From Closterium sp. NIES-65 (Eukaryota; Streptophyta; Zygnematophyceae; Desmidiales; Closteriaceae), in contig CANXME010002582.1 in the NCBI GenBank assembly GCA_948144175.1, positions 62,001-126,000 on the forward strand: a stretch of DNA of 64,000 nucleotides. Direction: 5' to 3'. This document shows, one piece after another, positions 22,067-48,242 of this stretch. The notes below the pieces were generated by a model. That model saw only the letters and a list, made by a program, of their open reading frames with translations. It was not told where the DNA came from and did not search any database. A program made the position numbers and the translations under genes. Each line of letters begins with the position of its first letter. The stretch's first letter is position 1.

Positions 22067-22224
22067 TCCGACCAAGTCGTCGTCGTTGCCCAAGCGAGGG
22101 CGGGGCCAACACTCCATTCCTGTTAACACTCCCCTGTCGCGCTCACGCTTGGGCCTCCAGCCCACACGGCAGTACTCCACGGAGAAAACTCGTCCTCGGC
22201 GTGCACCCCACACACAGCACACCG

Positions 22225-25938: not shown

Positions 25939-25951
25939 TGCTTGGAAGTCC

Positions 25952-27412: not shown

Positions 27413-27470
27413 GGCGACTATCGCTGTTGCCGGCCTACGAACGACTTAGTAGGTGCAAAAGTCGGCTCCT

Positions 27471-27509
27471 ATCTGAAGGTCGCGTGTTCGTTCCACGCTC
27501 ACCGCACCA
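27471..27509 (-). other. Extended primer site: 39-nt copy of the 3' part of tRNA-Phe
   Basis: Directly inside the 5' LTR, the plus strand reads ATCTGAAGGTCGCGTG, then TTCGTTCC, then ACGCTCACCGCACCA. This matches the end of plant tRNA-Phe from the anticodon stem to the terminal CCA, as I recall that sequence. The only mismatch in 39 nt is T at 27491 in place of A at tRNA position 58 in the T loop. The CCA is post-transcriptional, so this is a copied tRNA end, not a tRNA gene. The same sequence is at 48146-48184 in the right arm. Confidence 0.85.
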
Positions 27510-28384
27510 TGCGGAGATGCACTCTACAACGGTAGTGAGCTAGACTACAGGGTTGGCACAAACTACTAGAGGTGATCGTAGCTTTTCTTGGTTCCTTAGT
27601 GCTTGCACATTCACGGGAGAAATTGGCAAGAGTTTCCACTAGCAAAGTCGAGAATCCAAGAATAATCCAAGAAGCAATGACAACAATGACTACATCAGTG
27701 CACCTAGCAACCTTGCAGCTAGCCTGGTCGACCGCCAGCGCAGCTCGGTCGACCGCCTGCCAGCATTGCGTAGAGGAGCCGCGCCAGCACTGCAGAAGGG
27801 CGACCTGCCAACAAAGCAGGTCGACGGCGTGCCCCGTAGAACACAGCAGTGCGCGCGCTCGCAGGTGTGCGCAGACGATTGGCCCGACTTGCCTCGTTGG
27901 GCATCCGTCGGCTGTTGTCTGCGCCTGACGAGCCACATCGACTTCGGGATACCAGCCCGAAGTTGCCTGCGCCATCGCGATCTCGACGACGTCCGCGAGC
28001 CTCCGCAGAACTCGTCGAGCAGGTTACCCGGTTGACCTGGTTGACCCCTGGTGCTCTGGTCAACCTCCCAGGTGCCTCCGGTCGACCACTGGGTTCCTCT
28101 GGTCGACCACCAGGTGCTCCTGGTCGACCACAACTCCCGTCGAGCTACCCCCTGGTCGACGGACCCCTTCCGTCGACCAAAACTGCTCTGTCGACCTCCC
28201 GGTCGAACTGTAGGTCGACGGACTGCTTCGTCGACCTCCCGGACGGCCCACCCGTCGCAGTGACTAGTCAGTTGCAGTTGTCGAGCTCCTTGGTTGACAG
28301 CAACACCACAGCGGTCCGCTGTAGCTCGACGTACCCTGTCGAGCAGCTATCCCACTGTGAATAGTCGGCTGCTACTCCCGTGCA
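27510..28384 (-). repeat. 5' LTR of copia-B (left arm)
   Basis: The 875-bp LTR is bounded by the tRNA-Phe primer site and by satellite B. In its GTCGAC-rich zone (about 28030-28075) several copies have become GTTGAC or GTCAAC, CpG-transition changes absent from the 3' LTR. Confidence 0.9.
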
Positions 28385-31190
28385 TATGACCAGGGATGAG
28401 AGTGCACGAGAGTGAAAGGGAGTGTATGATAGTGTATGAGTGTGTATGGGAGTGTATAGGAGGGGATGAGAGTGTATATGATAGTGTATGAGTGGGTATG
28501 AGTGGGTACGAGAGGGTATGAGAGTGTATGAGAGGGAATGACATGGGATGAGAGGGGATGAGAGCGTATGAGTGTGTATGAGTGTGTATGGGAGTGTATA
28601 AGAGGGGATGAGAGTGTATATGAGTGTATATGAGTGGGTAAAAGAGGGTATGAGAGTATATGAGAGGGAATGAGATGGGATGAGAGGGGATGAGAGGGGA
28701 TGAGAGTGAATGAGAGTGTATGGAAGTGTATGGGAGTGGATGAGAGCGGATTAGGGGGTATGAGTGTGTATGAGTGTGGATGAGAGTGTTTAAGAGTGTC
28801 TGATAGTGCATGAGAGAGGATGAGAGGAGTTGAGAGTGTATGAGAGTGGATGAGGAGGGTTTAGAGTGTGTAAGAGAGTGTATGAGAGTGTGTGAGAGTG
28901 TATGAGATGGGATGATAGGGGATGAGAGGGGATGAGAGGGGATGATAGGGGATGACCAGGGATGAGAGTGCACGAGAGTGAAAGGGAGTGTATGATAGTG
29001 TATGAGTGTGTATGGGAGTGTATAGGAGGGGATGAGAGTGTATATGATAGTGTATGAGTGGGTATGAGTGGGTACGAGAGGGTATGAGAGTGTATGAGAG
29101 GGAATGACATGGGATGAGAGGGGATGAGAGCGTATGAGTGTGTATGAGTGTGTATGGGAGTGTATAAGAGGGGATGAGAGTGTATATGAGTGTATATGAG
29201 TGGGTAAAAGAGGGTATGAGAGTATATGAGAGGGAATGAGATGGGATGAGAGGGGATGAGAGGGGATGAGAGTGAATGAGAGTGTATGGAAGTGTATGGG
29301 AGTGGATGAGAGCGGATTAGGGGGTATGAGTGTGTATGAGAGGGGATGAGAGTGTTTAAGAGTGTCTGATAGTGCATGAGAGAGGATGAGAGGAGTTGAG
29401 AGTGTATGAGAGTGGATGAGGAGGGTTTAGAGTGTGTAAGAGAGTGTATGAGAGTGTGTGAGAGTGTATGAGATGGGATGATAGGGGATGAGAGGGGATG
29501 AGAGGGGATGATAGGGGATGACCAGGGATGAGAGTGCACGAGAGTGAAATGGGGTGTATGAGAGTGTATGAGTGTGTATGGGAGTGTATATGAGGGGATG
29601 AGAGTGTATATGATAGTCTATGAGTGGGTATGAGTGGGTACGAGAGTGTATGAGTGTATGAGAGGGAATGAGATGGGATGAGAGGGGATGAGAGGGGATG
29701 AGAGTGAATGAGAGTGTATGATAAGTGATGATGAGAGGGTATGAGAGTTTAGGAGAGTGGATGAGAGTGGTTGAGAGTGTATGAGAGTGTATGTGAGGGG
29801 ATGAGAGTGTAAGAGAGTGTATGAGAGTGAACGAGAGGGGATGTGAAGGGATGAGAGGGGATGAGAGTATATGAGAGGGGATGAGAGTATATGAGAGGGG
29901 ATGAGAGTGTGTGAGATAGGATGAGAACGGATGATAGGAAATGAGTGTGTATGAGAGTGAATGGGTGTGTATGAGGGGATGGGAGTGTATGAGAGTGAGT
30001 GTAGGAGATTGAATGAGAGTGGTTGAGAGTGTATGAGAGTGTATGAGAGAGGATGAGAGTGTATGAGAGTATATGAGAAGGGATGAGAGTGTATGAGTGT
30101 GTACGGGAGAGTATGACGGGATGATAGTGTATATGATAGTGGATGGGAGGGTATGAGAGTGTACAAGAGTGTATGAGAGTGTATGAGAGGGGATGAGTGT
30201 GTATGAGAGGGGATGAGATTGTATGAGAGGGGGTGTGAGGGGATAAGAGGGGATGAGTGTGAATGAGAGTGTATGGAAGTGTATGAGAGTGGATGAGAGC
30301 GGATTAGGGGGTATGAGTTTGTATGAGAGGGGATGAGAGTGTATCAGACAGTGGATGAGAGGGGATGAGAGTGTATCAGACAGTGGATGAGAGGGGATGA
30401 GAGCGAATAAGGGTGTATGTGAGTGTATGAGAGAGGATGAGGGGTTGAGAGTGTATGCGAGTGGATGAGGAGTGATGAGAGTGTGTAAGAGAGTGTATGA
30501 GAGTGTGTGAGAGTGTATGAGAGGGGATGAGAGGGGATGAGAGGGGATGAGAGGGGATGTGAGGGGATGAGTGTGAATGAGAGTGTATGAGAGTGTATGA
30601 GTGTGTATGGGAGTGTATAAGAGGGGATGAGAGTGTATATGAGTGTATATGAGAGTGGGTACGAGAGAGTATGAGAGTGTATGAGAGGGAATGACATGGG
30701 ATGAGAGGGGATGAGAGCGTATGAGAGTGAATGAGAGTGTATGGGAGTGTATAAGAGGGGATGAGAGTGTATATGAGTGTATATGAGTGGGTACGAGAGG
30801 GTATGAGAGGGAATGAGAAGGGATGAGAGAGGATGAGAGGGGATGAGAGTGAATGAGAGTGTATGATAAGGAATGATGAGAGAGTATGAGAGTTTGGGAG
30901 AGTGGATGAGAGTGGTTGAGAGTGTATGAGAGTGAATGAGAGGGGATGAGAAGGGATGAGAGTGTATGAGAGTGTACGAGAGTGAATGAGAGGGGATGAG
31001 AAGGGATGAGAGGGAAAGAGAGGGAATGAGAGGGAATGAGAGGGAATGAGAGTGAATGAGAGGGGATGAGAGGGAACGGGAGTGTGTGTGAGGGGATGAG
31101 AGGGGATGAGTGTGTACGAGAGGGGGTGAGCGAGAGGGATTGAGAGGGGATGAGTGTGTATGAGAGGGGGTGTGCGAGAGGGATGGAGAG
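28385..31190 (-). repeat. Satellite B array (left arm)
   Basis: On the minus strand this is an irregular run of decamers such as CTCTCATCCC, CTCTCATACA, CTCTCATTCA and CACTCATACA. It shares the CTCTCA head with satellite A but has no 30-bp ordering. On the plus strand it is purine-rich, so its polarity is opposite to the neighbouring satellite A across copia-B. Long open frames here come from the repeat composition, and I do not call genes. The array fades near 31190 into unique sequence. Confidence 0.92.
28397..29528 (-). repeat. 566-bp higher-order unit of satellite B, two tandem copies
   Basis: The landmark CCAGGGATGAGAGTGCACGAG recurs at about 28390, 28956 and 29522, giving two nearly identical 566-bp intervals. 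The right arm has three (45561-47258). The outermost landmark abuts the copia-B LTR. Confidence 0.9.
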
Positions 31191-31380
31191 AAGACTCAAC
31201 GTAGCTAGAGGGGACTAGAGAGCAGTCAAGCACGAGATAGCATAAAAGAAAAGCTTGGCACGAGAGAGGGAATTGACGTAATCGAGGCTTTGGCCGGGGA
31301 TGACACGGCATGCGAGGGAGTGAGGAAAGGTGGGTAGGAGACAAGAGAGCACGAGAGGGGAGGCTAGCAGACGAGAGTGC
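31191..31380. other. Unassigned unique sequence beside satellite B (left arm)
   Basis: This is non-repetitive, moderately purine-rich sequence grading out of satellite B. I see no convincing coding frame, RNA gene or transposon end. It is mirrored at about 43709-43898. Confidence 0.6.
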
Positions 31381-31735
31381 ATGGGCACCCTGGCCTCGGC
31401 GGTGGCCAGAGAGGCGCGACGCGCTGAGCGGCGGGTTAGCGCATCACGGTGGCGGATCGTCGCAATGCGCCCGGCAGGGTGGCCGCATTGTGCATTGCGA
31501 CGGCGGCGGCCTGGTAGGCGCGATGCGCGGAGCGGCCAAAAGCAGGACGCAATGCGCATCACGGCGGCGGCAGCCCGGTTGGCGCGATGCGCTTTGCGGC
31601 CCGAAGCTGGCCGCAATGCGCATCGCGGCGGCGGCTGCTCCTGATCGTCGCGATGCATCTCGCGACGATCGGGCCCGATGCATCGGGCGATGTGCTGTTC
31701 GGCGCGCCGGTTTGTGGGCGCATCGCGACAGCGGT
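31381..31735. repeat. GC-rich minisatellite (left arm)
   Basis: Imperfect units of about 64 bp are rich in GCGATGCGC, GCAATGCGC and CGGCGGCGGC. GCGATGCGC recurs near 31520 and 31584, and CAATGCGC near 31550 and 31614. The end near 31650-31690 contains self-complementary pieces around GATCGTCGCGATGCAT. Open frames across it run on both strands and look compositional. It is mirrored at 43354-43708. Confidence 0.75.
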
Positions 31736-32039
31736 CTGATCGACTTTATTCATTCATATTAGTAGTAATTTTCGAGTACCAAGGGACTAAACGTGAATGG
31801 ATGGGTAAAGGCTTTAGGGCTAAGGCACGCACCGTTGGTAGACGTCAGGTGCTACTAACGAACGCCTTGGATGCGTGAACGGGAAGCCAGCTGGCGAAAG
31901 CTATAGCTACTAGTAATAGCGTGAGGAATAGCTGATGGCGGGAAGTAAGTTGGAGAGCTGCGATGGGGTCAAGGTTCTGTACTTGGTTGGAACCGTAGCG
32001 GGCAGGGGGGTGTACAGCACGTCGGGTCGTGGTGTGGTC
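31736..32039. other. Unassigned sequence between minisatellite and ABCG-like exon
   Basis: This 0.3-kb unique stretch is present in both arms almost unchanged. Short frames occur, but none has a recognisable domain. It could be intronic or intergenic sequence of the ABCG-like locus that follows. Confidence 0.5.
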
Positions 32040-32083
32040 ATGAAGTATGCCTATGAGGCACTGGCGATCAACGAGTTTGGCAG
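32040..32083 (+). pseudogene. ABCG-type transporter exon fragment a
   Basis: The sequence translates to MKYAYEALAINEFG and ends CAG before a GTGAGG donor at 32084. YAYEALAINEF resembles the conserved segment near the end of the ABC2 membrane domain in ABCG (WBC) half-transporters. It is nearly the same as the end of fragment b, so one duplicates the other. The left arm's homology to the right arm ends inside it, at 32074 (ATCAACGA). Confidence 0.45.
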
Positions 32084-32463
32084 GTGAGGAGTGGGTTTAA
32101 CCTGTATGCTGAGGGTGACACTGCATGCAGTGGAATGGCATCCCGGACGGCTGGGTCTGGCTGCACTACCTCTCGCCCATGAACTATGCTTATGAAGCGC
32201 TGACGATCAACCAAGTTTGGCAGGTGAGAAATCGGCACCCTTTTGCTGGGGACATGAGTATGGGTGGAATAATGTGGGCATCACTTCTCGCCATCTTCCA
32301 CTTCACTATCTTTCCCCACCATCTCCCACTCCGCACCATCTTTCCCCACCGTCTCCCACTCCTCAGCACCAATCCCCAATCTCCATTTCTCTCCTGAATC
32401 ATCACCCCACCAGGCCCGGAGGACCCTGTTACTTGGAAGCTGGCACAATGTTTGATAATACAC
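32075..32463 (+). other. Centre-side flank present only once, between left arm and hAT
   Basis: These 389 bp have no counterpart in the right arm. They hold the end of ABCG-like fragment a, fragment b (32131-32223), a pyrimidine-rich intron-like stretch, and a possible further exon start after CACCAG at about 32413. Sequence immediately left of the hAT terminus is TAATACAC. Confidence 0.8.
32131..32223 (+). pseudogene. ABCG-type transporter exon fragment b
   Basis: A 93-bp exon-like block lies between a TGCATGCAG acceptor and a CAG/GTGAGA donor. It encodes WNGIPDGWVWLHYLSPMNYA and then YEALTINQVWQ. GWVWLHYLSP followed by YAYEAL and an N-[EQ] pair is typical of the extracellular-loop and last-helix region of ABCG half-transporters. 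The last codons read NQVW rather than NEFG because of one extra base relative to fragment a. No other part of a transporter gene is in the window, so this is a gene fragment or an exon of a disrupted gene. Confidence 0.5.
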
Positions 32464-32478
32464 CAGGGACGTCGCTAG
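32464..32478 (+). repeat. hAT left terminal inverted repeat
   Basis: CAGGGACGTCGCTAG is a perfect inverted match to 43000-43014. The CAGGG start is typical of hAT ends. Confidence 0.93.
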
Positions 32479-32492
32479 GATCTGAGGCAGCC

Positions 32493-32533
32493 TGATGGAG
32501 CAGACGGGCCCTTCGGGCCCGTCTGCTTCATCA
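32493..32533. repeat. Subterminal hairpin of the hAT
   Basis: Two 19-bp arms with one mismatch surround a TTC loop (32512-32514), centred on GGGCCC-TTC-GGGCCC. It lies 15 bp inside the left terminal repeat. No equivalent hairpin is evident at the right end. Confidence 0.85.
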
Positions 32534-32770
32534 GTGGGCTGAGTGATGCCCTGTCTGGTGGATCAGGATTTTCCAAAATCTCTGTCTGATCTGTCAGATC
32601 TTAAAGCACTGGCTTGTCAGTTTTTTTTTTTTTTTTTGGGTTGCATTGCATCAACTCTGGCAGAAGTTAAAGCTTCATCAATATTACGGTAAAAGAACTA
32701 TCAAATAAAAAATTATGTAACTACTGGTGAGGTGTTATTACACTACAAATTACATCTACTCTAGTCTAGT
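32534..32770. other. hAT left subterminal region and transposase 3' UTR
   Basis: This is non-coding. It contains clustered CTGAT/ATCAG motifs up to about 32612 and a run of 17 T (32621-32637), which is an A tract on the transposase strand. Confidence 0.6.
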
Positions 32771-34930
32771 CTACTCAGTGTCAGACTCTACTATTGTGGC
32801 GCGGACATCAAGCCCATTGTCATCATCACTGTCGTCCGACACTGCTACAGCTGCACGTGCTTTGCCCTTCTTAGAGGTCCTCCGCCTGACCACGTCCTCC
32901 TCATCATCTTCGTCTTCATTGGAGGCAGCAGCTGACGTTCCTCTCTCGGCCTTCCGCTTTGGGGCTCTCTCTGGAGTGTTCTTCTTGGTCGTCACTTCCT
33001 TAGCAGGGCGCCTCTTCTTTGCGCTCCTCCAAGCAGCCACCACGTCCTCCCAGTTCGGCTCGTACTGCAGGAGCGATACCGACATCAGGTCCGCCAGGCG
33101 TGTGTTGCACAGATTCCCGCGGAGCCACGATTTGATGATGTTTTGCCTCGAGAAGCCGCGCTCGCACTCGACGGTGCTCAGCGGCAGCACAGCGAGGGCG
33201 ATCCAGATGCGGACCATGTTGGGGTAGCTCGTCTCCCAGTCGTCGCTGCGCAACATGTGCTTGAGGCCGGCGTGGAAGGTCTGGTCCTTGTACTGCGAGG
33301 CCATCATCTTGGTAAACGGCACCAGTTCTCGTCCCGCCTTTTTCCAGCTCACTCCTGCTCACGCACAATTGCAAGTACAAGAGGGGCGGGGGCCAACGGG
33401 GAGATAAGTCAGTGGCGGTACCATATCACCAAGCGTGTAACATTGATGCACAAAAGAGACGCACAGATTACCTGGAAGTACGCACTTCTCCGCACTGAAC
33501 AGCGTGCGGAGAGACTGGAACCAGGCTTGGCAGAGGCGGTCTCTCTTCGCGCTTCCCTCGGGGTACGCGTCAGGCAGGAAAAGCTTCGCTCCGGTGAGGG
33601 TGTCTAGGCTCTCCATCCGCTTCAGGAGGTGCTTCACAACTTCCTGCGCAAACAGGCGGGTTACAGTGATGCATGATTCTATGTCGCCTTTTGACTTCTG
33701 TCCCTTGATGGCGTCCTCGTGCAGCATGAAAGTGTGTTTAACGGGACTTCCCTCCCCATCCATGCCTTCGACCGTCACCTCCCGCTTGTCCAACGCTCCG
33801 TGCTTCTCCATGAACTCGGTGAGCAACTCGCTATCCTCAGCGTAGTTGACGCCGTGCTCGATGTATCGCTGCTTTAGCTTGTCGCACGTGTTGTGGACCA
33901 TTGATGCCACCCGGGTGATGTCCACCTGCACACGGCAAGAAGCCAACGTCAGACACGTTCGAGTGCATGAACATCAGCACGGACCTCTCTACTGCTCACC
34001 ATGCGCCGTTGAAACTTGAGGTTCAGCTCGTTGAGCAGTTTCAGCACATCTGCCAGGAAAAACAGGAAGAAGTGGAACTTGAAACTCGAGACTGTCTTGT
34101 AGGCCTTCTTGTCTTGCTCCCACAACACCACTATCGCCGCCGGTAGGACTTCCACGAGCCTCCGAATCGCATCGCCACGCGCCAGCCATCGAACGTCTTT
34201 AAAACCCTGCACCTCCAGAGACGTCTCGTGCAGGATGTGTTGTAGCTCCATGAACCGGGAGTGCAAGACGATGCTCCTCCCCAAGTTCTCTGTGATGCTC
34301 CGCACGACCGTGTCGACCATGCTGAGGTCGGGCACCGCCTCCGCCGCGTCCTTCGCGGCGAGAGCCTCCCTGCAAGTGTGCAAAAAGAAGCGGTTAGAAC
34401 ACTGAAAAACGTCTGACAACAAGATCATACACCACCGCTAGAGAGATTTTGTCATCGCACCTGTGAGCGATGCAGTGGCACGTCACCAGGTGTGGGACTC
34501 GCAGTTTCAGCTGGGTCCCCACTCCAGCCTGTGAACCCCGCATCACGCTCGCGCCATCCGTACTAATGCCCGTCAGTTTCATGATGTCGACGCCCGTCAT
34601 GGCCAAATGGGCGAGAAGTACTGTCAGCAGAGACGACGCGTCGCACTTCTCGACTGTCAGGTGCCCAAACAGCTCGGTGACGACCTCGGCGTCGCGAATG
34701 AAGCTAAGATAGACTATCATGTGCTTGCCTCTGCGCCGGTCGGTACTCTCGTCGAGTTGAATTCCTAAGAACGGAGACGCCTGGATGTGGCGCATCTGCT
34801 GCTGCCTCAGGTTGGTGACGATCGCTTCGGTAATTTCACGGAAGCCGTACCTGCACAACACAGTGAATGTGGTATTAGTCGTAGTGACAATAAAAACACA
34901 AACCAAGAAAGACTTTCACTCACGCTGACT

Positions 34931-34935
34931 GGTAT
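34931..34935 (+). repeat. Target-site duplication of A2, left copy
   Basis: GGTAT is repeated exactly at 41444-41448, immediately outside the two A2 LTRs. Confidence 0.97.
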
Positions 34936-35812
34936 TGTTATGTGATGCTATCATTTGCATTCACGTCTGTCTGCCTCCCATCATGTGTTCGTGCGTTGCA
35001 TGTGTGAAATGAGCGTGCGCAAGAATTTGTGTTTTTCTGTGGTTTGGATTTTCTGAGTGTGTGTGAATGTTATTTGGCTTGAGCAGATATTTGAAGTGAC
35101 TCCACTGCTCAAGATCTTTCCGTTGAGCCAAGAATCGTCGCGATCGGAGCAATATCAAGAAAGTTACGAACGTTGGAGTTCGTATGCTTTCTGTACTTCG
35201 GTTGTGGCGACTATGGGAAGTTGTGGGGTTGACTCAATATGGGGTACAGACTTTTGGGGGTTGGGAATTCGAACCCATCACTGTAGAATGCTGCCATGTG
35301 GTTGGGTGAAGCCAAACCAGGTTGGCAAGTGTGGCCAAGTGGGTTGAGGTGGATGGCATGAGTTGGGAAAGTGACAAATGTGAAAGTGGGGTTGCCTATG
35401 GGGAAGGGAATTGTGTGGCATGGGGTTTCCTTGGTTGGGGAATCTCTTGGAACCTTCCCTCTCGTCCTCCTCTTCCCTCCTACCTGGTTTAGTGCTACCC
35501 TAACTCTCTTGTGTGTAACTTTGTGGAACTTGTGAGAACCATTGTGATTGAGTTAAGCATGTGGCAGCATACCCCCTAGTGCGCCGAAAATCATAACTCG
35601 AGATTTACTCCACCATTTGATACGATTCAAATTGGGAATGATAGCCCTGGTTACAGGCTACAACATACTCGAGTTTGAGATGATTCTAACGGTGCACTTT
35701 TCGTCGACAACGTTTCTTGTGAAGTCGACGTTTTCTGTCCAGAATTCTAAGCCAACGATTTTGAGAATTTTTGGCACCTAATCTTCGTAGACTACGTCCT
35801 TAGTCTCTAACA
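34936..35812 (+). repeat. 5' LTR of A2
   Basis: The 877-bp LTR runs from TGTTATGTGATGC to TCTCTAACA. The edge is fixed by the duplication outside and the primer site two bases inside. Confidence 0.96.
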
Positions 35813-35814
35813 AG

Positions 35815-35826
35815 TGGTATCAGAGC
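35815..35826 (+). other. Primer binding site of A2 (initiator tRNA-Met)
   Basis: TGGTATCAGAGC is complementary to the 3' end of plant initiator tRNA-Met and starts minus-strand synthesis. Confidence 0.93.
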
Positions 35827-36048
35827 TGATTAAGGACTTTGCGGAGAGTCTACGGAAGTGTGAAGACCCTCCTAGACCCACCATTGCCTGTGGGCGTGCC
35901 TAAGTGGAGTTCTGGAGGTTGGATGTGACTTCCGCTAAGGGGAAACTCTGCCGAAATTTCGTTGGCGCCGTCACTTGTGAAGATTGTGTGGATCTACATT
36001 GTGACCAGCAAAGGGGGGAGCTGAAACCTCTGATTGAGAGCAGAGGAG

Positions 36049-39000
36049 ATGAGTCAAGGGAGTGGAGAAGCAGCTGAGAAGAAGAGTGAGCCGCCACCAT
36101 CCAAGATTGAGGCATTGGATGGCTCCAACTACGAGGAATGGAGCGGGCGGATGCGGAGCGCCTTCAAGCGCTACAAGCTGCTCAAAATTGCAATGGGAGA
36201 GGAGAAGATGCCGGGGGAAGGAGACGCCCGCGATCGGTGGATTGAGAAGAGCGCGGTGCTGTACGACTTGATTCTACAGTTGGTCAACAACGACATGTTC
36301 CAGCATATCAAGGATTTGGTGGAGCTCGATGACTCGGGACCGAAGGCGTGGAAGCTGCTACGCGACGTGGTTCAACCCAACACGCTGCCGATGGTGATCG
36401 TATTGGAGAAGGAGTTGGCTGCCCTCTCCATGCGGCCGGGAGATGATGTGAAGCCGGTCCTTGACAAGATCAAGGACACCTATGCGAGGATGGCAGCGGC
36501 GGGCAGCGAAGTGTCGCAGATGCAACAGTGCACCAAGATCATCTCGGTGCTCGACAACTCGTGGGACAACCTCATCCCCACCCTCAACGTTCAGCAGGAC
36601 AAATGGACGCCTGAGTGGCTACGGCAGCAGATCCTGCAGGAGGACTTCCGCAGGCGCCACACTGGAGGTGGTGCTGCCAACAAAACTGCAGAGGGGTATG
36701 GAGCTGCAGGAGGCAGCAGAGGGAGAGGGGGAGGGAGAGGCCGAGGCCGTGGGAGAGGCTTTGGCAGAGGAAGAGGCCGAGGTGACTACAATGAGGGGCA
36801 TGGGAGCTCTGGTGGCAAGGGGAGCACCCGAATGGAGGGTGCTTGCTGGTACTGCAAGAAGGCTGGACACCCATGGTTCAAGTGTTTCAGCCGGCCTGAG
36901 GGATGGGCGCCCCCAGGCATGAAGCCGCCAAGTGGTGAACGTGCACGAGGTGGCGCTGTGCAAGGTTCAGGTGCACAAGGTGATGGTGCACAAGGTAAAG
37001 CCGACCCTGGGATGTTCCTCATGGTTGAGGATATGCAAGGGAGTGGGGGTGATGTGGGTTCAGTAGGGAAGGTTGTGATGCACCCTCTCACTCACTGGGT
37101 GATCGATTCAGGTTGCACGAGTCATATGACCCCACGGGCAGATTTGCTTGATGAGGTAAAACCTCCTGGGAAGATCAAGTTTGTGGCTGCCGCTTCAGGT
37201 GCTTTGCTCCTTGTGATTGGTGTTGGGAATGCTAAGGTAATGGGAGCCAATGGAGAGCTCGTGGGGCTTGGGAATGTGCTGTTGGTTGAAGGTTTGTCCG
37301 CTAACCTTCTTTCTGTGCGCCGGCTGCAGAAGAGCAAGGCTGAAGTTACCTTCGGCCCAACCAGCTGCCGTGCAAAGCTTGGGAAGTTGCTGCTGTGGAA
37401 CTTGGAGGAGAAGAACAGCTGCATCAAGGACCTATGGCAGCTGCCCATCATCCCTTGGAAGGGGAAACCACCAGCAACGGCAAAGGCAGCGGCAGCGGGT
37501 AAAGCAACTGCGGGAGGAGAGGAGACTGCACCAACTGCTGGGGCCCTAGATGCAGTCAAGAAGGTGCAGCAGCCACAGCAATCACATGGTGAGGTGCTTG
37601 CTGGTGTGGATGCAACCGCTGCATGGGCAAAGGCTTCATCCGGGAGTGGTGAGGCCGATTGGGAGACGTGGCACGAGAGGTTGTGCCACATCAACATTCC
37701 GATGCTGCAGAAATTGGTGAAGGATGGGAACCTGAAGGGATTGGAGGTGAAGGGGGCAGCAAGGGAGATTGGGAGCTGCCCTACATGCCTTGAGACCAAG
37801 TTCACGAAGTTTCCCTTCAGCAGCAGCACGGGACCAGCGAAGGCTCCACTTGCACTTGTGCACATGGACGTGGTGGGCCCCACGAGGGCCCCTTCTCTCT
37901 CGGGCAGCCGCTATTTCCTGACCATTGTGGATGACCACACACGTGCGGTGTGGGTCTACCCTCTCAAGACTAAGGGGGAGGTGGCAGCGGCTGTTCTCAA
38001 GGAGTGGATGCCAAGAGCACAAAGGGAGAGCGGACACAAAGTGAAGGTGATCCGCACCGACAATGGGGGAGAGTTCATTGGCACTGTTTTTGAGGCGGTG
38101 CTGAAGAAGAAGGGGATCCAGCATCAGCTCACGGTGCCCTACAACCCTGAGCAGAACAGCGTGGCTGAGCGGTTCAACCGGACCCTGCAGGAAGGTGCTC
38201 GCACTCTCCTTGGGCGTGCAGGGCTGCCGGATCCGTTTTGGGTGACTGCACTACGGCAGGTCGTTGTGGTGAAGAACAGGGTGCTCGCAACTGTGGGGGA
38301 CAAGCAGTGGGTGCCTTACACCAAGTGGTATGGGAGTGCACCAGCAGTCAACATGCTGAGAGCCTACGGCTGCATGGTGGTGTTTCATGTGCCGAAGGAG
38401 AAGAGGAGAAAGTTGGAAGCTTCTGGAAGATGGGGTGTGCACTTGGGACTTGCGAAGGACCACAAGGGCTGGCTCATATGGGACTTGACCAGCCAGCAGC
38501 TGACTGTGTCAAGGGACGTGAAGTTCCTGGAGTCCTTGTACTACAAGGAGTGGAAGCAGCAGCAGCAAAAGCTTCCTACGACACCGCTGATCGTTGAGGC
38601 CGATGAGATGCAGCGGCCTTCGAGGCAAGTGGAGGTTGCCATCTCAGAGGAGGAGATCTCTGGGGTGACTGAGGATGGGGGAGAACCTGAGGTGGTGGAG
38701 CAGCAGCAGCAGCAGCAGCAGCCGCAGCAGCAGCAGCCGCAGCAGCAGCAGCAAGATGCTCCACGAGGTGCCGCACGTACGGCTGACCGTCCTAAGAGGG
38801 ATGTGCGCCCTCCTAACCGGCTGACCTATCCGAGCTTTGGGAAGCCGAAGGTGGTACGGGCTGGGAGTGTGGCTGAGCAGTGTGATGAGGAGGAGATAGC
38901 GCACTGCTACTGGGCAGCCGTCCCTGAGCCCAAGACGCTTACTGAGGCCTTGAGTGGGCCCGATGCTGAGAAGTGGAAGCAGAGTGTGAAGGAGGAGTAC

Positions 39001-40509
39001 GACTCACTGCTGGAGAATGAGACGTGGGAGCTGTGTGAGCTGCCTCCTGGGAAGAAGGCAATCTCTTCGAAGCTGATCTTCAGGCACAAGTATGGACCTG
39101 ATGGGGAGCTGACGCGCTACATGTCAAGGCTTGTCGTCAAGGGGTTCCAGCAGACGAAGGGGAAGGATTTTGATGAGCTCTATGCTCCTGTGGGAAAAGG
39201 CACAACACTGAGAGTGTCTTTGGCGATGGCCGCATACCGTGGATGGCGGGTAAAGCAGCTGGACATTACCACCGCCTTCCTCAATGGAGTCATTCTGGAG
39301 GAGCTGTACATGCTGCAGCCTGAGGGGTTGGATGATGGGAGCGGCAGGGTGTGCAGGCTGAAGAAGGCCATCTATGGCCTGAAGCAGGCTCCTCGTGCAT
39401 GGTACCACAAACTGGAGGAGACACTGCTGGCTGGGGGGTTCAAGAAGAGTGAGTGCGATCACAGCTTGTTCCTGCTGCAAGAGAAGGAGCAGTTTCTCAT
39501 GCTCCTGGTGTATGTGGACGACATACTGCTCTTCTCTGAGTCGTCTGCAATGATTGAGCGTGTGGAGGAGATGCTGGAAATGCAGTTCAAGTGCTCCAAG
39601 ATGGGAGATGTGAAGTACTACCTTGGGATGCATGTGGAGAGGGACCTTGACAAGGGAGTGTTGAGGTTGCACCAGAGAAAGTATTGTGAGGGGCTGGCTG
39701 AGAAGTATGGGCTGCAAGATGGAGGAAAGCCAGCCACCCCACTGCCTTCGGGGTTCACTGTGGAGCCCTGTGCTGATGAGGAGGTGGTGGGTGAGAGTGA
39801 CAGGAAACGTTTTCATTCCATGGTGGGGGCACTCAACTATGCGGCTAACCACACACGGCCTGACATTGCCTTTGCAACATCTAGGCTTGCCAGTGTGGTT
39901 TCACGCCCCAGTCATGAGCAGCTGGAAGCGGCCAAGAGGTTGGTCCGCTATGTGAGTGCAACGGCATCAGTGGGTTTGGAGTACAGTGCTGTGCGACAGA
40001 GGCTACAGAGGGGTGCAGCTGACTTGAGCAAGGGGGAGATGCGCCTAACGTGCTACACCGACGCTAGCTTCAACTCTGTGAAGTCGGATGGCACCAGCAT
40101 TGGAGGCTATGTGTGCCTCTTTGGAGGTGGTGCAGTGAGCTGGCGCAGCAAGAAGCAGAACGAGGTGGGGCTGTCCTCGTGTGAGACAGAGTACATGGCC
40201 CTTCATCATGGGGCAAAGGAGGTGGTGTGGCTGAGGCGTTTGCTAGAGGAGATTTGGGTTGGTCAAAAGGAGCCGACTGTGATTTTCTGTGACAATGAGT
40301 CAACTGTGAAGCTTGCGAAGAATGCCTGTCTTCATGGCCTGACAAAGCACATCAGGCCTAAGTGGCATTGGACGAGGAGGCTCCTGGATAAGGAGGTTCG
40401 ACTGGAACTTGTGAAAAACCAGCAACAGGCGGCTGACATTCTCACCAAACGCCTGGCTGAATCTAAGCATTGGAAGGGCATGAAGCTTGCTGGGATGAGT
40501 GTGCATTGA
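36049..40509 (+). CDS. Copia gag-pol polyprotein, intact (A2)
   Basis: A 1486-residue polyprotein starts at the ATG at 36049 (MSQGSGEAAEKK); an in-frame TTG 15 bp upstream is not needed. Order: retrotransposon gag (about 25-215), Gly/Arg-rich stretch, CCHC knuckle C266-C279, aspartic protease DSG at 353-355, HHCC integrase finger (H542, H547, C577, C580), and integrase core D607, D671, E707 with exact D-x35-E spacing. A poly-Gln linker encoded at about 38698-38750 follows. Then come the RT with D1072 and YVDD 1155-1158, and RNase H with D1338, E1381 and D1415. This domain order defines Ty1/copia. The protein would form cytoplasmic particles, copy element RNA and integrate the DNA. No frameshift or stop was found. 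It serves as the reference for recognising damage in A1. Confidence 0.96.
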   Translation: MSQGSGEAAEKKSEPPPSKIEALDGSNYEEWSGRMRSAFKRYKLLKIAMGEEKMPGEGDARDRWIEKSAVLYDLILQLVNNDMFQHIKDLVELDDSGPKAWKLLRDVVQPNTLPMVIVLEKELAALSMRPGDDVKPVLDKIKDTYARMAAAGSEVSQMQQCTKIISVLDNSWDNLIPTLNVQQDKWTPEWLRQQILQEDFRRRHTGGGAANKTAEGYGAAGGSRGRGGGRGRGRGRGFGRGRGRGDYNEGHGSSGGKGSTRMEGACWYCKKAGHPWFKCFSRPEGWAPPGMKPPSGERARGGAVQGSGAQGDGAQGKADPGMFLMVEDMQGSGGDVGSVGKVVMHPLTHWVIDSGCTSHMTPRADLLDEVKPPGKIKFVAAASGALLLVIGVGNAKVMGANGELVGLGNVLLVEGLSANLLSVRRLQKSKAEVTFGPTSCRAKLGKLLLWNLEEKNSCIKDLWQLPIIPWKGKPPATAKAAAAGKATAGGEETAPTAGALDAVKKVQQPQQSHGEVLAGVDATAAWAKASSGSGEADWETWHERLCHINIPMLQKLVKDGNLKGLEVKGAAREIGSCPTCLETKFTKFPFSSSTGPAKAPLALVHMDVVGPTRAPSLSGSRYFLTIVDDHTRAVWVYPLKTKGEVAAAVLKEWMPRAQRESGHKVKVIRTDNGGEFIGTVFEAVLKKKGIQHQLTVPYNPEQNSVAERFNRTLQEGARTLLGRAGLPDPFWVTALRQVVVVKNRVLATVGDKQWVPYTKWYGSAPAVNMLRAYGCMVVFHVPKEKRRKLEASGRWGVHLGLAKDHKGWLIWDLTSQQLTVSRDVKFLESLYYKEWKQQQQKLPTTPLIVEADEMQRPSRQVEVAISEEEISGVTEDGGEPEVVEQQQQQQQPQQQQPQQQQQDAPRGAARTADRPKRDVRPPNRLTYPSFGKPKVVRAGSVAEQCDEEEIAHCYWAAVPEPKTLTEALSGPDAEKWKQSVKEEYDSLLENETWELCELPPGKKAISSKLIFRHKYGPDGELTRYMSRLVVKGFQQTKGKDFDELYAPVGKGTTLRVSLAMAAYRGWRVKQLDITTAFLNGVILEELYMLQPEGLDDGSGRVCRLKKAIYGLKQAPRAWYHKLEETLLAGGFKKSECDHSLFLLQEKEQFLMLLVYVDDILLFSESSAMIERVEEMLEMQFKCSKMGDVKYYLGMHVERDLDKGVLRLHQRKYCEGLAEKYGLQDGGKPATPLPSGFTVEPCADEEVVGESDRKRFHSMVGALNYAANHTRPDIAFATSRLASVVSRPSHEQLEAAKRLVRYVSATASVGLEYSAVRQRLQRGAADLSKGEMRLTCYTDASFNSVKSDGTSIGGYVCLFGGGAVSWRSKKQNEVGLSSCETEYMALHHGAKEVVWLRRLLEEIWVGQKEPTVIFCDNESTVKLAKNACLHGLTKHIRPKWHWTRRLLDKEVRLELVKNQQQAADILTKRLAESKHWKGMKLAGMSVH

Positions 40510-40554
40510 GGGTGCATGCTTGAGCTATGGCATGTGGGATGATGGTTGGCAGCC

Positions 40555-40564
40555 AGAGGGGGAG
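40555..40564 (+). other. Polypurine tract of A2
   Basis: AGAGGGGGAG lies two bases before the 3' LTR, the expected plus-strand primer. The 40510-40554 stretch between the stop codon and this tract is short non-coding sequence. Confidence 0.85.
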
Positions 40565-40566
40565 TT

Positions 40567-41443
40567 TGTTATGTGATGCTATCATTTGCATTCACGTCTG
40601 TCTGCCTCCCATCATGTGTTCGTGCGTTGCATGTGTGAAATGAGCGTGCGCAAGAATTTGTGTTTTTCTGTGGTTTGGATTTTCTGAGTGTTTGTGAATG
40701 TTATTTGGCTTGAGCAGATATTTGAAGTGACTCCACTGCTCAAGATCTTTCCGACGAGCCAAGAATCGTCGCGATCGGAGCAATATCAAGAAAGTTACGA
40801 ACGTTGGAGTTCGTATGCTTTCTGTACTTCGGTTGTGGCGACTATGGGAAGTTGTGGGGTTGACTCAATATGGGGTACAGACTTTTGGGGGTTGGGAATT
40901 CGAACCCATCACTGTAGAATGCTGCCATGTGGTTGGGTGAAGCCAAACCAGGTTGGCAAGTGTGGCCAAGTGGGTTGAGGTGGATGGCATGAGTTGGGAA
41001 AGTGACAAATGTGAAAGTGGGGTTGCCTATGGGGAAGGGAATTGTGTGGCATGGGGTTTCCTTGGTTGGGGAATCTCTTGGGACCTTCCCTCTCGTCCTC
41101 CTCTTCCCTCCTACCTGGTTTAGTGCTACCCTAACTCTCTTGTGTGTAACTTTGTGGAACTTGTGAGAACCATTGTGATTGAGTTAAGCATGTGGCAGCA
41201 TACCCCCTAGTGCGCCGAAACTCATAACTCGAGATTTACTCCACCATTTGATACGATTCAACTTGGGAAAGATAGCCCTGGTTACAGGCTACAACATACT
41301 CGAGTTTGAGACGATTATAACTGTGCACTTTTCGTCGACAACGTTTCTTGTGAAGTCGACGTTTTCTGTCCAGAATTCTAAGCCAACGATTTTGAGAATT
41401 TTTGGCACCTAATCTTCGTAGACTACGTCCTTAGTCTCTAACA
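40567..41443 (+). repeat. 3' LTR of A2
   Basis: This 877-bp LTR is the same length as the 5' LTR with about ten substitutions. Differences include GTTTGTG in place of GTGTGTG, and CCGACGAGCC in place of CCGTTGAGCC. Confidence 0.96.
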
Positions 41444-41448
41444 GGTAT
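41444..41448 (+). repeat. Target-site duplication of A2, right copy
   Basis: GGTAT matches 34931-34935. Reading the hAT gene across one copy keeps exon 1 in frame up to a GTGAGT donor. Confidence 0.97.
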
Positions 41449-42383
41449 GTCCCTATGGACTTGTCCGGGATGTGCGGCGTCTGAAGCTCACCCAACAGGC
41501 GAACAAGATCAATAAACAGGGAGATGGGGGAATCGGATTTGCAGATAAATAGCACGACCAGCATCAGTTGTTTCAACCGAGAAGTCTCGTTGTCGTCGTT
41601 TTTGAACTGCTCAATGCCCCTCTGTGCAACCTTACCGCCTTCGGCGCGAAGCTTGGCTTTGACTGCGTCTTGATGCTTGAGGCTGAGCGCGTGCTTCCGC
41701 ATTGTTTGCCGCTGGATATCAACGCCACCTTCGCCGTATTTACCAAACTTCCAGTGGGCTGGACCGTGAGCCATGCATATACTGCACTTCATGCACGGCG
41801 TCCCGTCCTTCCTCTGCGTGATAATCAGCCACTTGAAGTTGTCGCGCCAAAATTCCTTGGACAGCTCGTGGAGCTTCTCCATAAGCGCGTCTGGATCAGG
41901 GACGTGGATGGTGCTCCTGGAAGGCCCAGGATCACCTGTGGGATGAGCTGCTGGTGCTGTTGATGCAGCAGCAGCCTCAACTCTAGGCTCTGGCGTGGGT
42001 CCTGACACGATGCGGACGTGAGGAACCCCCGTCTTTGCAATACGCAGCGTGCTCTGGGTATATCGGCCTGCCTTTGGGAATCGTCCCACGGCAGTACCAC
42101 GTGAAGTGCTAGGTGCCGCTTGCGATCTAGGATTAGCTCTAATCCGTGCAGAGGTACTAGGGGAGACAGGCGGTGTGCTACTGAAAGCCCGTCTAGCATT
42201 AACAGCAGGCCAGTCTACAGGAGCGACATCCTGCCGATTCGGGGAAGAAGACGGTGGTACGCGTGTCGGCGAAGAGGCGCCTAACACGGCGGCTGGCTGG
42301 GAACGGCGTAGGAAATCGAGGCCCGTGACAGGTGGTTTGGGCCGTGGGGTGGGTGATTCGGCAGTTTCCGTGTCGTCCGCCAT

Positions 42384-42999
42384 GGCGAGAGGGCGGACTT
42401 ACGTGACTAAGGCGATAACCGTCTGCAATCGCTGTGAAAATGGCTAGGTAGGGCGTTTGCAAGAGGAGGCTGGAGAAGAAGGACCCCCCCGAAACCCCAA
42501 CGCCCGACCACAGAGCCTTGTTGACGAACCGCGCATGGATCCCGAAAACTGTGGGTGGCACCACTTGACTGTGGTGAACCCAAACCGCGCTTCCCGAACC
42601 TTCGGCAGGCGCCGAAATTGTGGGTTTGTGGTGCTGGATTGATGACTGTTGTACTAAACTAGCCAATCCCACACTTGTGGCAGGCCACGTACGATAGAAA
42701 CACGTGGGAACACGGGGGGCGGCGTGCATGATGCATACACTCCGGTAATCACGGCAAAACACCCACACCACGCCTTGCTCACGCGTGAATCACGCCTAAG
42801 GGTAGAAAGATTCGGTAACAGACTAAACCCGAAAGTACTCCTGATGTATCAGAGGAACATGGAAAACGTTTCTGATGGGTCTGATATAGCAAAACAGCAT
42901 TTCTGAATGAACAGATTTCACTAAGTCCTGATTTTTGAATTATCAGATTAAATCAAAAAGTTACCCTCCAATATAGGACAAACAGACAAAAAATTTCTG
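42384..42999 (-). promoter_or_regulatory. hAT 5' region and right subterminal repeats
   Basis: This is the non-coding stretch upstream of the transposase ATG and should hold its promoter; no TATA box is convincing. About 42840-42960 carries several TCTGAT/ATCAGA motifs (for example near 42848, 42872, 42881 and 42948). They match the subterminal motif at the other end and are probable transposase-binding sites. Confidence 0.5.
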
Positions 43000-43014
43000 C
43001 TAGCGACGTCCCTG
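43000..43014 (-). repeat. hAT right terminal inverted repeat
   Basis: CTAGCGACGTCCCTG is the exact reverse complement of 32464-32478. Right-arm homology to the left arm starts at the next base. Confidence 0.93.
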
Positions 43015-43049
43015 TCGTTGATCGCCAGTGCCTCATAGGCATACTTCAT
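43015..43049 (-). pseudogene. ABCG-type exon fragment a, mirror copy
   Basis: The minus strand encodes MKYAYEALAIN and is cut at the hAT end after ATCAACGA. It is the counterpart of 32040-32074. Confidence 0.45.
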
Positions 43050-43353
43050 GACCACACCACGACCCGACGTGCTGTACACCCCCCTGCCCGCTACGGTTCC
43101 AACCAAGTACAGAACCTTGACCCCATCGCAGCTCTCCAACTTACTTCCCGCCATCAGCTATTCCTCACGCTATTACTAGTAGCTATAGCTTTCGCCAGCT
43201 GGCTTCCCGTTCACGCATCCAAGGCGTTTGTTAGTAGCACCTGACGTCTACCAACGGTGCGTGCCTTAGCCCTAAAGCCTTTACCCATCCATTCACGTTT
43301 AGTCCCTTGGTACTCGAAAATTACTACTAATATGAATGAATAAAGTCGATCAG
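43050..43353. other. Unassigned sequence (right arm)
   Basis: This is the mirror of 31736-32039. I see no recognisable gene, RNA or transposon end. Confidence 0.5.
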
Positions 43354-43708
43354 ACCGCTGTCGCGATGCGCCCACAAACCGGCGCGCCGAACAGCACATC
43401 GCCCGATGCATCGGGCCCGATCGTCGCGAGATGCATCGCGACGATCAGGAGCAGCCGCCGCCGCGATGCGCATTGCGGCCAGCTTCGGGCCGCAAAGCGC
43501 ATCGCGCCGACCGGGCTGCCGCCGCCATGATGCGCATTGCGTCCTGCTTTTGGCCGCTCCGCGCATCGCGCCTACCAGGCCGCCGCCGTCGCAATGCGCA
43601 ATGCGGCCACCCTGCCGGGCGCATTGCGACGATCCGCCACCGTGATGCGCTAACCCGCCGCTCAGCGCGTCGCGCCTCTCTGGCCACCGCCGAGGCCAGG
43701 GTGCCCAT
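43354..43708. repeat. GC-rich minisatellite (right arm)
   Basis: This is the mirror of 31381-31735 with a few substitutions, some at CpG sites. The same roughly 64-bp degenerate unit is present. The sequence at 43709-43898 is unassigned, mirroring 31191-31380. Confidence 0.75.
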
Positions 43709-43898
43709 GCACTCTCGTCTGCTAGCCTCCCCTCTCGTGCTCTCTTGTCTCCTACCCACCTTTCCTCACTCCCTCGCATGCCGTGTCATCCCCGGCCAAA
43801 GCCTCGATTACGTCAATTCCCTCTCTCGTGCCAAGCTTTTCTTTTATGCTATCTCGTGCTTGACTGCTCTCTAGTCCCCTCTAGCTACGTTGAGTCTT

Positions 43899-46800
43899 CT
43901 CTCCATCCCTCTCGCACACCCCCTCTCATACACACTCATCCCCTCTCAATCCCTCTCGCTCACCCCCTCTCGTACACACTCATCCCCTCTCATCCCCTCA
44001 CACACACTCCCGTTCCCTCTCATCCCCTCTCATTCACTCTCATTCCCTCTCATTCCCTCTCATTCCCTCTCTTTCCCTCTCATCCCTTCTCATCCCCTCT
44101 CATTCACTCTCGTACACTCTCATACACTCTCATCCCTTCTCATCCCCTCTCATTCACTCTCATACACTCTCAACCACTCTCATCCACTCTCCCAAACTCT
44201 CATACTCTCTCATCATTCCTTATCATACACTCTCATTCACTCTCATCCCCTCTCATCCTCTCTCATCCCTTCTCATTCCCTCTCATACCCTCTCGTACCC
44301 ACTCATATACACTCATATACACTCTCATCCCCTCTTATACACTCCCATACACTCTCATTCACTCTCATACGCTCTCATCCCCTCTCATCCCATGTCATTC
44401 CCTCTCATACACTCTCATACTCTCTCGTACCCACTCTCATATACACTCATATACACTCTCATCCCCTCTTATACACTCCCATACACACTCATACACTCTC
44501 ATACACTCTCATTCACACTCATCCCCTCACATCCCCTCTCATCCCCTCTCATCCCCTCTCATCCCCTCTCATACACTCTCACACACTCTCATACACTCTC
44601 TTACACACTCTCATCACTCCTCATCCACTCGCATACACTCTCAACCCCTCATCCTCTCTCATACACTCACATACACCCTTATTCGCTCTCATCCCCTCTC
44701 ATCCACTGTCTGATACACTCTCATCCCCTCTCATCCACTGTCTGATACACTCTCATCCCCTCTCATACAAACTCATACCCCCTAATCCGCTCTCATCCAC
44801 TCTCATACACTTCCATACACTCTCATTCACACTCATCCCCTCTTATCCCCTCACACCCCCTCTCATACAATCTCATCCCCTCTCATACACACTCATCCCC
44901 TCTCATACACTCTCATACACTCTTGTACACTCTCATACCCTCCCATCCACTATCATATACACTATCATCCCGTCATACTCTCCCGTACACACTCATACAC
45001 TCTCATCCCTTCTCATATACTCTCATACACTCTCATCCTCTCTCATACACTCTCATACACTCTCAACCACTCTCATTCAATCTCCTACACTCACTCTCAT
45101 ACACTCCCATCCCCTCATACACACCCATTCACTCTCATACACACTCATTTCCTATCATCCGTTCTCATCCTATCTCACACACTCTCATCCCCTCTCATAT
45201 ACTCTCATCCCCTCTCATATACTCTCATCCCCTCTCATCCCTTCACATCCCCTCTCGTTCACTCTCATACACTCTCTTACACTCTCATCCCCTCACATAC
45301 ACTCTCATACACTCTCAACCACTCTCATCCACTCTCCTGAACTCTCATACCCTCTCATCATCACTTATCATACACTCTCATTCACTCTCATCCCCTCTCA
45401 TCCCCTCTCATCCCATCTCATTCCCTCTCATACACTCATACACTCTCGTACCCACTCATACCCACTCATAGACTATCATATACACTCTCATCCCCTCTTA
45501 TACACTCCCATACACACTCATACACTCTCATACACCCCATTTCACTCTCGTGCACTCTCATCCCTGGTCATCCCCTATCATCCCCTCTCATCCCCTCTCA
45601 TCCCCTATCATCCCATCTCATACACTCTCACACACTCTCATACACTCTCTTACACACTCTAAACCCTCCTCATCCACTCTCATACACTCTCAACTCCTCT
45701 CATCCTCTCTCATGCACTATCAGACACTCTTAAACACTCTCATCCCCTCTCATACACACTCATACCCCCTAATCCGCTCTCATCCACTCCCATACACTTC
45801 CATACACTCTCATTCACTCTCATCCCCTCTCATCCCCTCTCATCCCATCTCATTCCCTCTCATATACTCTCATACCCTCTTTTACCCACTCATATACACT
45901 CATATACACTCTCATCCCCTCTTATACACTCCCATACACACTCATACACACTCATACGCTCTCATCCCCTCTCATCCCATGTCATTCCCTCTCATACACT
46001 CTCATACCCTCTCGTACCCACTCATACCCACTCATACACTATCATATACACTCTCATCCCCTCCTATACACTCCCATACACACTCATACACTATCATACA
46101 CTCCCTTTCACTCTCGTGCACTCTCATCCCTGGTCATCCCCTATCATCCCCTCTCATCCCCTCTCATCCCCTATCATCCCATCTCATACACTCTCACACA
46201 CTCTCATACACTCTCTTACACACTCTAAACCCTCCTCATCCACTCTCATACACTCTCAACTCCTCTCATCCTCTCTCATGCACTATCAGACACTCTTAAA
46301 CACTCTCATCCACACTCATACACACTCATACCCCCTAATCCGCTCTCATCCACTCCCATACACTTCCATACACTCTCATTCACTCTCATCCCCTCTCATC
46401 CCCTCTCATCCCATCTCATTCCCTCTCATATACTCTCATACCCTCTTTTACCCACTCATATACACTCATATACACTCTCATCCCCTCTTATACACTCCCA
46501 TACACACTCATACACACTCATACGCTCTCATCCCCTCTCATCCCATGTCATTCCCTCTCATACACTCTCATACCCTCTCGTACCCACTCATACCCACTCA
46601 TACACTATCATATACACTCTCATCCCCTCCTATACACTCCCATACACACTCATACACTATCATACACTCCCTTTCACTCTCGTGCACTCTCATCCCTGGT
46701 CATCCCCTATCATCCCCTCTCATCCCCTCTCATCCCCTATCATCCCATCTCATACACTCTCACACACTCTCATACACTCTCTTACACACTCTAAACCCTC

Positions 46801-47270
46801 CTCATCCACTCTCATACACTCTCAACTCCTCTCATCCTCTCTCATGCACTATCAGACACTCTTAAACACTCTCATCCACACTCATACACACTCATACCCC
46901 CTAATCCGCTCTCATCCACTCCCATACACTTCCATACACTCTCATTCACTCTCATCCCCTCTCATCCCCTCTCATCCCATCTCATTCCCTCTCATATACT
47001 CTCATACCCTCTTTTACCCACTCATATACACTCATATACACTCTCATCCCCTCTTATACACTCCCATACACACTCATACACACTCATACGCTCTCATCCC
47101 CTCTCATCCCATGTCATTCCCTCTCATACACTCTCATACCCTCTCGTACCCACTCATACCCACTCATACACTATCATATACACTCTCATCCCCTCCTATA
47201 CACTCCCATACACACTCATACACTATCATACACTCCCTTTCACTCTCGTGCACTCTCATCCCTGGTCATA
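43899..47270 (+). repeat. Satellite B array (right arm)
   Basis: An irregular CTCTCA-headed decamer array, pyrimidine-rich on the plus strand. It is nearly identical to the left-arm array over 43899-45560, then carries one more 566-bp unit. Its outer end (CCTGGTCATA) abuts the copia-B LTR. Confidence 0.92.
45561..47258 (+). repeat. 566-bp higher-order unit of satellite B, three tandem copies
   Basis: The landmark TCCCTGGTCAT occurs at 45561, 46127, 46693 and 47259, each 566 bp apart. The left arm has two intervals. Later copies share small differences, for example CTCATCCACACTC where the first copy has CTCATCCCCTCTC. Confidence 0.92.
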
Positions 47271-48145: not shown

Positions 48146-48184
48146 TGGTGCGGTGAGCGTGGAACGAACACGCGACCTTCAGAT
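48146..48184 (+). other. Extended tRNA-Phe-derived primer site (right arm)
   Basis: It starts TGGTGCGGTGAGCGTGGAAC immediately inside the LTR. It is the exact reverse complement of 27471-27509, with the same single mismatch (A at 48164) opposite tRNA position 58. Confidence 0.85.
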
Positions 48185-48242
48185 AGGAGCCGAGTTTTGC
48201 ACCTACTAAGTCGTTCGTAGGCCGGCAACAGCGATAGTCGCC

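Follow-up and report, generated by a model that had tools for sequence, protein, structure and literature searches.

A 51.9-kb inversion between two opposite hAT elements with exchanged target-site duplications in Closterium sp. NIES-65

Introduction

Inversions that carry transposons at their breakpoints are already known from Drosophila, maize stocks and Atlantic cod, and a locus in the alga Closterium sp. NIES-65 is a further case. The locus lies on contig CANXME010002582.1 (here called C2284). The stretch analysed (the window) comprises 64,000 nucleotides, C2284:62001-126000, and contains a hAT transposon, hAT1, at the centre of a long palindrome; a second copy, hAT2, lies farther along the contig, which was also read outside the window with its pieces joined in native order.

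In inversion 2z3 of Drosophila buzzatii, as in Closterium, opposite copies of one transposon (Galileo) occupy the breakpoints and their target-site duplications have been exchanged; this inversion is attributed to ectopic recombination (PMC2775673). The Galileo copies are chimeric, whereas hAT1 and hAT2 are each other's exclusive sisters and show no chimeric structure, and an uninverted chromosome is lacking here. The natural inversions of the Atlantic cod likewise have one hAT family at both breakpoints, and ectopic recombination has been proposed for them (PMC12368964). Those inversions are large in scale and involve tandem miniature elements derived from hATs, whereas the Closterium pair is full-size and all four of its flanks were read; the term target-site duplication is absent from the cod paper (PMC12368964).

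Sister-chromatid transposition has been described for Ac/Ds, a hAT system that, like the present family, duplicates 8 bp of its target (PMC3744419, PMC8225341). In the hybrid-element insertions of Ac/Ds and P elements the paired ends of two copies take part, and the new duplication is found on the moved ends and the old one on the unmoved ends (PMC3744419, PMC8225341). The Ac/Ds cases come from genetic stocks, whereas in Closterium an old event is inferred from sequence alone and recombination is about equally explanatory. The reversed-ends inversions of maize resemble the present one in that hATs occupy both breakpoints and an 8-bp duplication is shared (PMC8225341). They need two prior elements, and the unmoved ends should then bear two different old duplications, whereas both bear TAATACAC here.

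Inversions with transposons at their breakpoints are often credited to homologous recombination, and in the papers cited here one-step alternative transposition comes mainly from genetic stocks. All four junctions, two contigs that appear to represent different haplotypes and other copies of the family are at hand for the present locus, and the candidate mechanisms lead to opposite expectations about intermediate alleles. A natural pair of full-size hATs with exchanged duplications in a tandem array was not met in searches of the open-licence literature, which is weak evidence of absence.

The inversion and its four junctions

The window contains the first breakpoint of a 51.9-kb inversion between two opposite sister hAT copies, whose 8-bp duplications have been swapped crosswise. 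hAT1 marks this breakpoint and occupies 32464..43014 on the plus strand (C2284:94464-105014; 10,551 bp including a nested Copia element). As is usual for hAT DNA transposons, it ends in short terminal inverted repeats (CAGGGACGTCGCTAG, at 32464 and 43014), which are identical at 15 of 15 bp. Its 8-bp flanks differ, with TAATACAC on the left and TCGTTGAT on the right. The left flank (32456..32463, plus strand) is the left half of the original target-site duplication of hAT1, and its partner, C2284:156876-156883, adjoins the right end of hAT2. The right flank (43015..43022) is ATCAACGA on the minus strand, reading TCGTTGAT on the plus strand; it is half of a second target-site duplication, the partner of which (C2284:175715-175722) adjoins the left end of hAT2. 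The TCGTTGAT at 43015-43022 is also the reverse complement of an uninterrupted ATCAACGA at 32067..32074 (plus strand), a paralogous and unoccupied copy of the target site. Between this position and hAT1 lies an ABCG-like spacer of 389 bp (32075..32463, plus strand), which is present uninterrupted in units that have no hAT.

hAT2 (C2284:156884-175714, 18,831 bp) lies 51.9 kb downstream of hAT1 in the opposite orientation. Its right end is flanked by TAATACAC and then CCGTGGCGCC, and empty sites continue likewise after TAATACAC. Its left end is flanked by ATCAACGAGTTTGG and adjoins the other copy of ATCAACGA. The segment between the two elements measures 51,869 bp (C2284:105015-156883). Flipping this segment back would restore two ordinary insertions, one flanked on each side by TAATACAC and the other by ATCAACGA. 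What is seen is therefore an inversion in which the target duplications have changed places. The two marks of an inversion between transposon copies, opposite orientation at the two breakpoints and a crosswise distribution of the duplications, are both present.

The genome (874 Mb in 2,400 contigs) was searched for related loci, and 40 of the 89 candidate places were scored. Such junctions occur on three contigs, all in the inverted state. On contig C2075, hAT1 occupies 196102-206643 and hAT2 occupies 127045-145803, and their four flanks are those of C2284; the two contigs are 99.4% identical over 18.6 kb and 99.5% over 17.0 kb (mismatches alone, 0.24% and 0.41%), and C2075 is taken to be the other haplotype. 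Contig C443 matches C2284 around hAT2 with 99.87% identity along 26.6 kb, contains both hAT2 flanks and is probably from the same haplotype as C2284.

The initial annotation of the window had placed the palindrome breakpoint at a hAT terminus and had recorded the unlike left flank, the reverse complement of ATCAACGA at 43015-43022 and the 389-bp distance. All of these hold to the base, and homology of the right arm begins directly after the last base of hAT1. The 8-bp stagger that it proposed gains independent evidence only from hAT2, the left end of which bears the other ATCAACGA; within the window TCGTTGAT is simply the first 8 bp of arm homology. It had also argued that a copy of TCGTTGAT/ATCAACGA beside the left hAT terminus in other individuals would make the hAT a later bystander. 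Such a copy exists, but beside hAT2 and not hAT1, and the view that the hAT is no late bystander stands because both duplications are accounted for, with a right end on one side of a target and a left end on the other, the arrangement expected if transposition had used ends of two sister copies. Among the scored places there was neither a hAT with TAATACAC at each end, which the initial annotation had predicted for related strains, nor a palindrome lacking the hAT, which would have spoken against that annotation.

The palindrome and the tandem array

The collinear part of the left arm (20727..32074, plus strand) is the end of a tandem unit, unit b, and consists of satellite, a long terminal repeat (LTR) element, satellite and an ABCG exon. 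The collinear part of the right arm (43015..54947, minus strand) is the end of unit c, now inverted, and opens the 51,869-bp inverted segment, which extends past the window. Homology runs leftward from 32074 and rightward from 43015. Next to the centre the arms agree at 3,683 of 3,689 sites, with 6 mismatches and no gap, and collinearity reaches 11.3 kb, despite differences in length of 566 and 19 bp, and includes the LTR element common to both arms; a match of this length is not due to chance. Beyond 11.3 kb the arms match only in satellite words, out of register. Divergence is patchy and ranges by stretch from 0.04% to 1.0%: 7 of 6,070 sites differ near the centre and 53 of 5,228 farther out (Fisher p = 1e-11), a count that omits the differences in satellite length and a 43-site stretch between the zones, which has one gap and 4 mismatches. 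Since a sister copy would have started uniform, the arms are read as paralogues. The inverted arm, which the initial annotation had regarded as the sister copy of the left one, is accordingly read as part of a neighbouring tandem unit.

The 425-bp unit end (window 32040-32464) is present without a hAT at nine other places among those scored, some of which may be alleles of each other. Four of these are of the ABCG type (L003, L004, L005, L014) and five have a satellite-side arm as in the window (L006-L010). The scored unit ends share one orientation, three of three on C2284 (at 23.3, 94.0 and 175.7 kb) and three of three on C2075. When the segment that runs from TAATACAC in unit a to ATCAACGA in unit b (C2284:23724-94074, 70.4 kb) is compared with the re-inverted segment between units b and c (156883 to 105015, 51.9 kb), the first 5.5 kb and, interrupted by gaps, about 14 kb at the end match in the same direction. 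They share 15,036 unique 31-mers in direct and 2,786 in reverse orientation, a comparison blind to satellite, which makes up much of the interval. These data strongly indicate that hAT1 and hAT2 occupy adjacent units (b and c) of an array of direct tandem repeats, which is read as having changed later.

Because units b and c are direct repeats on this reading, an inversion brings their ends face to face and gives a palindrome. A palindrome centred on a transposon therefore need not be an inverted duplication; a plain inversion within a tandem array makes one. The two insertion sites occupy paralogous positions 389 bp apart, and the units measure 52 and 70 kb on C2284. This closeness may arise because insertion favours the gene-like portion of a unit or because of pairing one unit out of register.

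Several repeats were observed in and around the arms. A 30-bp satellite of strongly skewed composition (CTCATACGCTCTCATTCCCTCTCACCCACT on the plus strand) occupies most of the outer arms (4034-21193 and 54481-64000), and relatives with a 10-bp period are found at 28396-31122 and 43967-47259. A G+C-rich tandem repeat with a 64-bp period stands by the ABCG exon in each arm (31501-31635 and 43433-43609); the left array contains two, and the right array three, of the first four mismatches between the arms. Two alike ABCG-like exon pieces lie in tandem at 32038-32085 and 32178-32224. The upstream piece is joined to other sequence in the arm-type units and is preceded by CTCTCGCCC in L003, L004, L005 and L014.

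Relation of hAT1 and hAT2 to the family

hAT1 and hAT2 differ at 12-14 of 2,397 left-end sites and at 4-5 of 930 right-end sites. Left positions 156 and 1418 have a state private to the pair (present in all 5 of its rows and in none of the 12 others), and three further left positions have a pair-specific state in 4 of 5 rows; this comparison omits L023 and two duplicate partial rows (short or redundant) as well as copies without an assigned locus. At the right end the pair of states T...A occurs in exactly five places, every one of them hAT1 or hAT2 (for hAT2 this end comes from C2284 and C443 alone). The general right-end pattern occurs in 18 places, and the 13 that are not hAT1 or hAT2 all have C...C, which accounts for 13 of the 16 other close copies; three copies on contig C1697 fit neither form. 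hAT1 and hAT2 are thus exclusive sister copies among the copies scored. Independent insertion of two distant family members was also considered and was rejected on account of this sister status.

At left positions 731, 987 and 994 (window 32464-34060) four of the hAT1/hAT2 rows are derived, whereas the remaining one, hAT1 of C2075, agrees with the 12 rows from elsewhere in the family. Gene conversion is the likely cause.

Exact 8-bp target-site duplications, as expected of hATs, flank 10 of the 13 other copies read, although two of the ten, on C697 and C1450, have the same flanks and probably represent one site. Among the remainder, the C1992 copy has a damaged end and two C1697 copies have mismatched flanks; copies on C665 and C2325 and the third C1697 copy were left out of the count. 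On contig C1659 (126367-134522) two hATs of the same family (L026 and L027) lie 98 bp apart in opposite orientation, each with its own intact duplication. The C1697 copies at about 485.7 and 546.2 kb (L029, L030, L061, L062) have one orientation and share the non-matching flanks CTGTGAGT and TTGTCGAG, and represent either a target duplication that has decayed or another case of a rearranged element, amplified in a different array. The third C1697 copy lies at 452.8 kb.

Origin of the inversion

The preferred explanation, which is given an even chance of being correct, is a two-step route in which a local copy in opposite orientation is followed by homologous recombination between the copies. 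The element would first have been inserted in unit b, with the duplication TAATACAC, and a nearby copy in opposite orientation would then have arisen in unit c, with the duplication ATCAACGA. Homologous recombination of the two copies would have flipped the intervening segment, and retrotransposons would have entered hAT1 and hAT2 separately. The opposite pair on C1659 and the conversion-like states in the C2075 hAT1 suggest that the family shows both ingredients of this route.

Several observations weigh against the two-step route and the tandem setting on which it builds. No uninverted allele of the hAT1-hAT2 interval was found among the scored candidates, although paralogous empty units exist, and the genome yielded no ordinary unit-c insertion flanked on each side by ATCAACGA, so the order of the two steps is unseen. 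The middle of the two intervals compared above has fewer direct runs, partly out of order, and their lengths differ by 18.5 kb. All seven hAT1-hAT2 differences that could be polarised (three on the left with 12 rows, four on the right with one outgroup copy) are private, the derived state is missing from the outgroup rows and there is no sign of a chimera. Identical copies are held to indicate hybrid-element insertion and chimeric ones recombination, the outcomes being otherwise strikingly similar (PMC2775673). Chimerism could not show in a young, identical pair. The seemingly identical origin of hAT1 and hAT2 favours hybrid-element insertion, but a fresh local pair would look alike.

Hybrid-element insertion, a form of sister-chromatid transposition described as a look-alike of ectopic recombination (PMC2775673), would produce the inversion in one step and is a serious candidate, with a probability somewhat short of even; its weight and that of recombination were set by judgement. 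Once the DNA had been replicated, the element's right end would be cut on one chromatid and its left end on the sister, and the pair would be inserted into ATCAACGA of the next unit, 52 kb away; joining without a circle would yield arm b, hAT, inverted segment, hAT and the remainder of unit c. All four flanks would stem from one event and one founder, with TAATACAC on the unmoved and ATCAACGA on the moved ends. The copies would be identical when made, which agrees with their exclusive sister status and with the seven private differences, and no intermediate allele is needed; none is seen in the two haplotype contigs. Such an event has left no independent trace here, the reciprocal product, an emptied and footprinted donor site, being expected in another lineage, and alternative transposition is rarer than the standard reaction even in active systems (PMC8225341). 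The transposase-like gene of hAT1 is also interrupted by Copia now, though Copia appears to have come later. A less likely variant is that the insertion took place between sisters (or homologues) paired one unit out of register; donor and target would then have been spatially separated by no more than 389 bp, and a local transposition would become a 52-kb inversion. If true, sister-chromatid transposition by a single element would here have left a natural fossil, with all four junctions kept in two haplotypes, and tandem arrays would be seen to channel such events. The initial annotation had interpreted the structure as sister-chromatid transposition. The reaction class fits in the form of hybrid-element insertion, but the allelic target 389 bp upstream is unsupported, as the inverted part ends at hAT2; the annotation also left out recombination between two opposite elements, which fits about equally well.

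In that allelic version the right arm would be the sister copy of the left, produced by attack on the sister chromatid 389 bp upstream. The flanks in the window, taken alone, fit it, and the arms share 99.9% identity over the 6 kb nearest the centre. However, its product would be expected to mirror the left side toward the chromosome end, whereas the inverted part stops at hAT2. The patchy divergence of the arms, the total lengths of 70.4 and 51.9 kb and the five arm-type units L006-L010, in which neither site holds a hAT, also speak against it, and the crosswise flanks of hAT2 contradict it unless a later second rearrangement is assumed, which makes it highly improbable. Two ordinary hAT insertions misjoined through common sequence during assembly are only marginally easier to credit. 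The region is rich in satellite and repeats, short overlapping contigs occur (C443 repeats the end of C2284) and the structure was judged from contigs rather than reads, but the same four junctions are found in the two diverged contigs C2284 and C2075, the longest uninterrupted stretch common to hAT1 and hAT2 is about 2.4 kb, and the nested elements of the two differ, with Copia in hAT1 of both contigs. An origin of the palindrome before the hAT, followed by hAT insertion and a deletion starting at its left terminus, would account for the differing flanks alone; it does not predict TAATACAC and the continuation of the hAT1 site at the right end of the second element and can hardly be correct. 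Reversed-ends transposition was rejected because two different old duplications would be expected on the unmoved ends, which is not what they carry.

Coding content and nested elements

The hAT transposase-like gene of hAT1 lies on the minus strand, with putative 3' exons at 32771..34915 (open frames with intron-like gaps) and a 5' exon, likewise deduced from frames, at 41444..42398. A zf-C17orf113 domain was found above the cut-off, and DUF4371 (E-value 3.8e-6) and Dimer_Tnp_hAT (E-value 0.003) were found below it. Two further exon frames of hAT1 gave no relevant domain match, and a search of solved structures with the 3' exon frame returned no transposase. The 5' and 3' exons are parted by a Copia-type retrotransposon (about 34937-41443, plus strand) with the target duplication GGTAT on both sides. 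Since it splits the transposase-like frames, hAT1 would now need transposase from elsewhere.

The Copia element is found in hAT1 of both C2284 and C2075, and the corresponding site in hAT2 is uninterrupted. Its repeats differ at 10 of 876 sites (11 of 881 in the BLAST alignment), compared with 13 of 2,397 sites on the left and 5 of 930 on the right between hAT1 and hAT2. By these figures Copia would seem older than the split of hAT1 and hAT2, but only 3 of the repeat differences are common to both haplotype contigs, and the ages are therefore compatible. These numbers are too small for the dating of nested elements to order the events; they are consistent with a split, then the Copia insertion and then divergence of the haplotypes. 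hAT2 has two other insertions with LTR-like ends, the short repeats of which are 94-96% identical and which are apparently older than the split.

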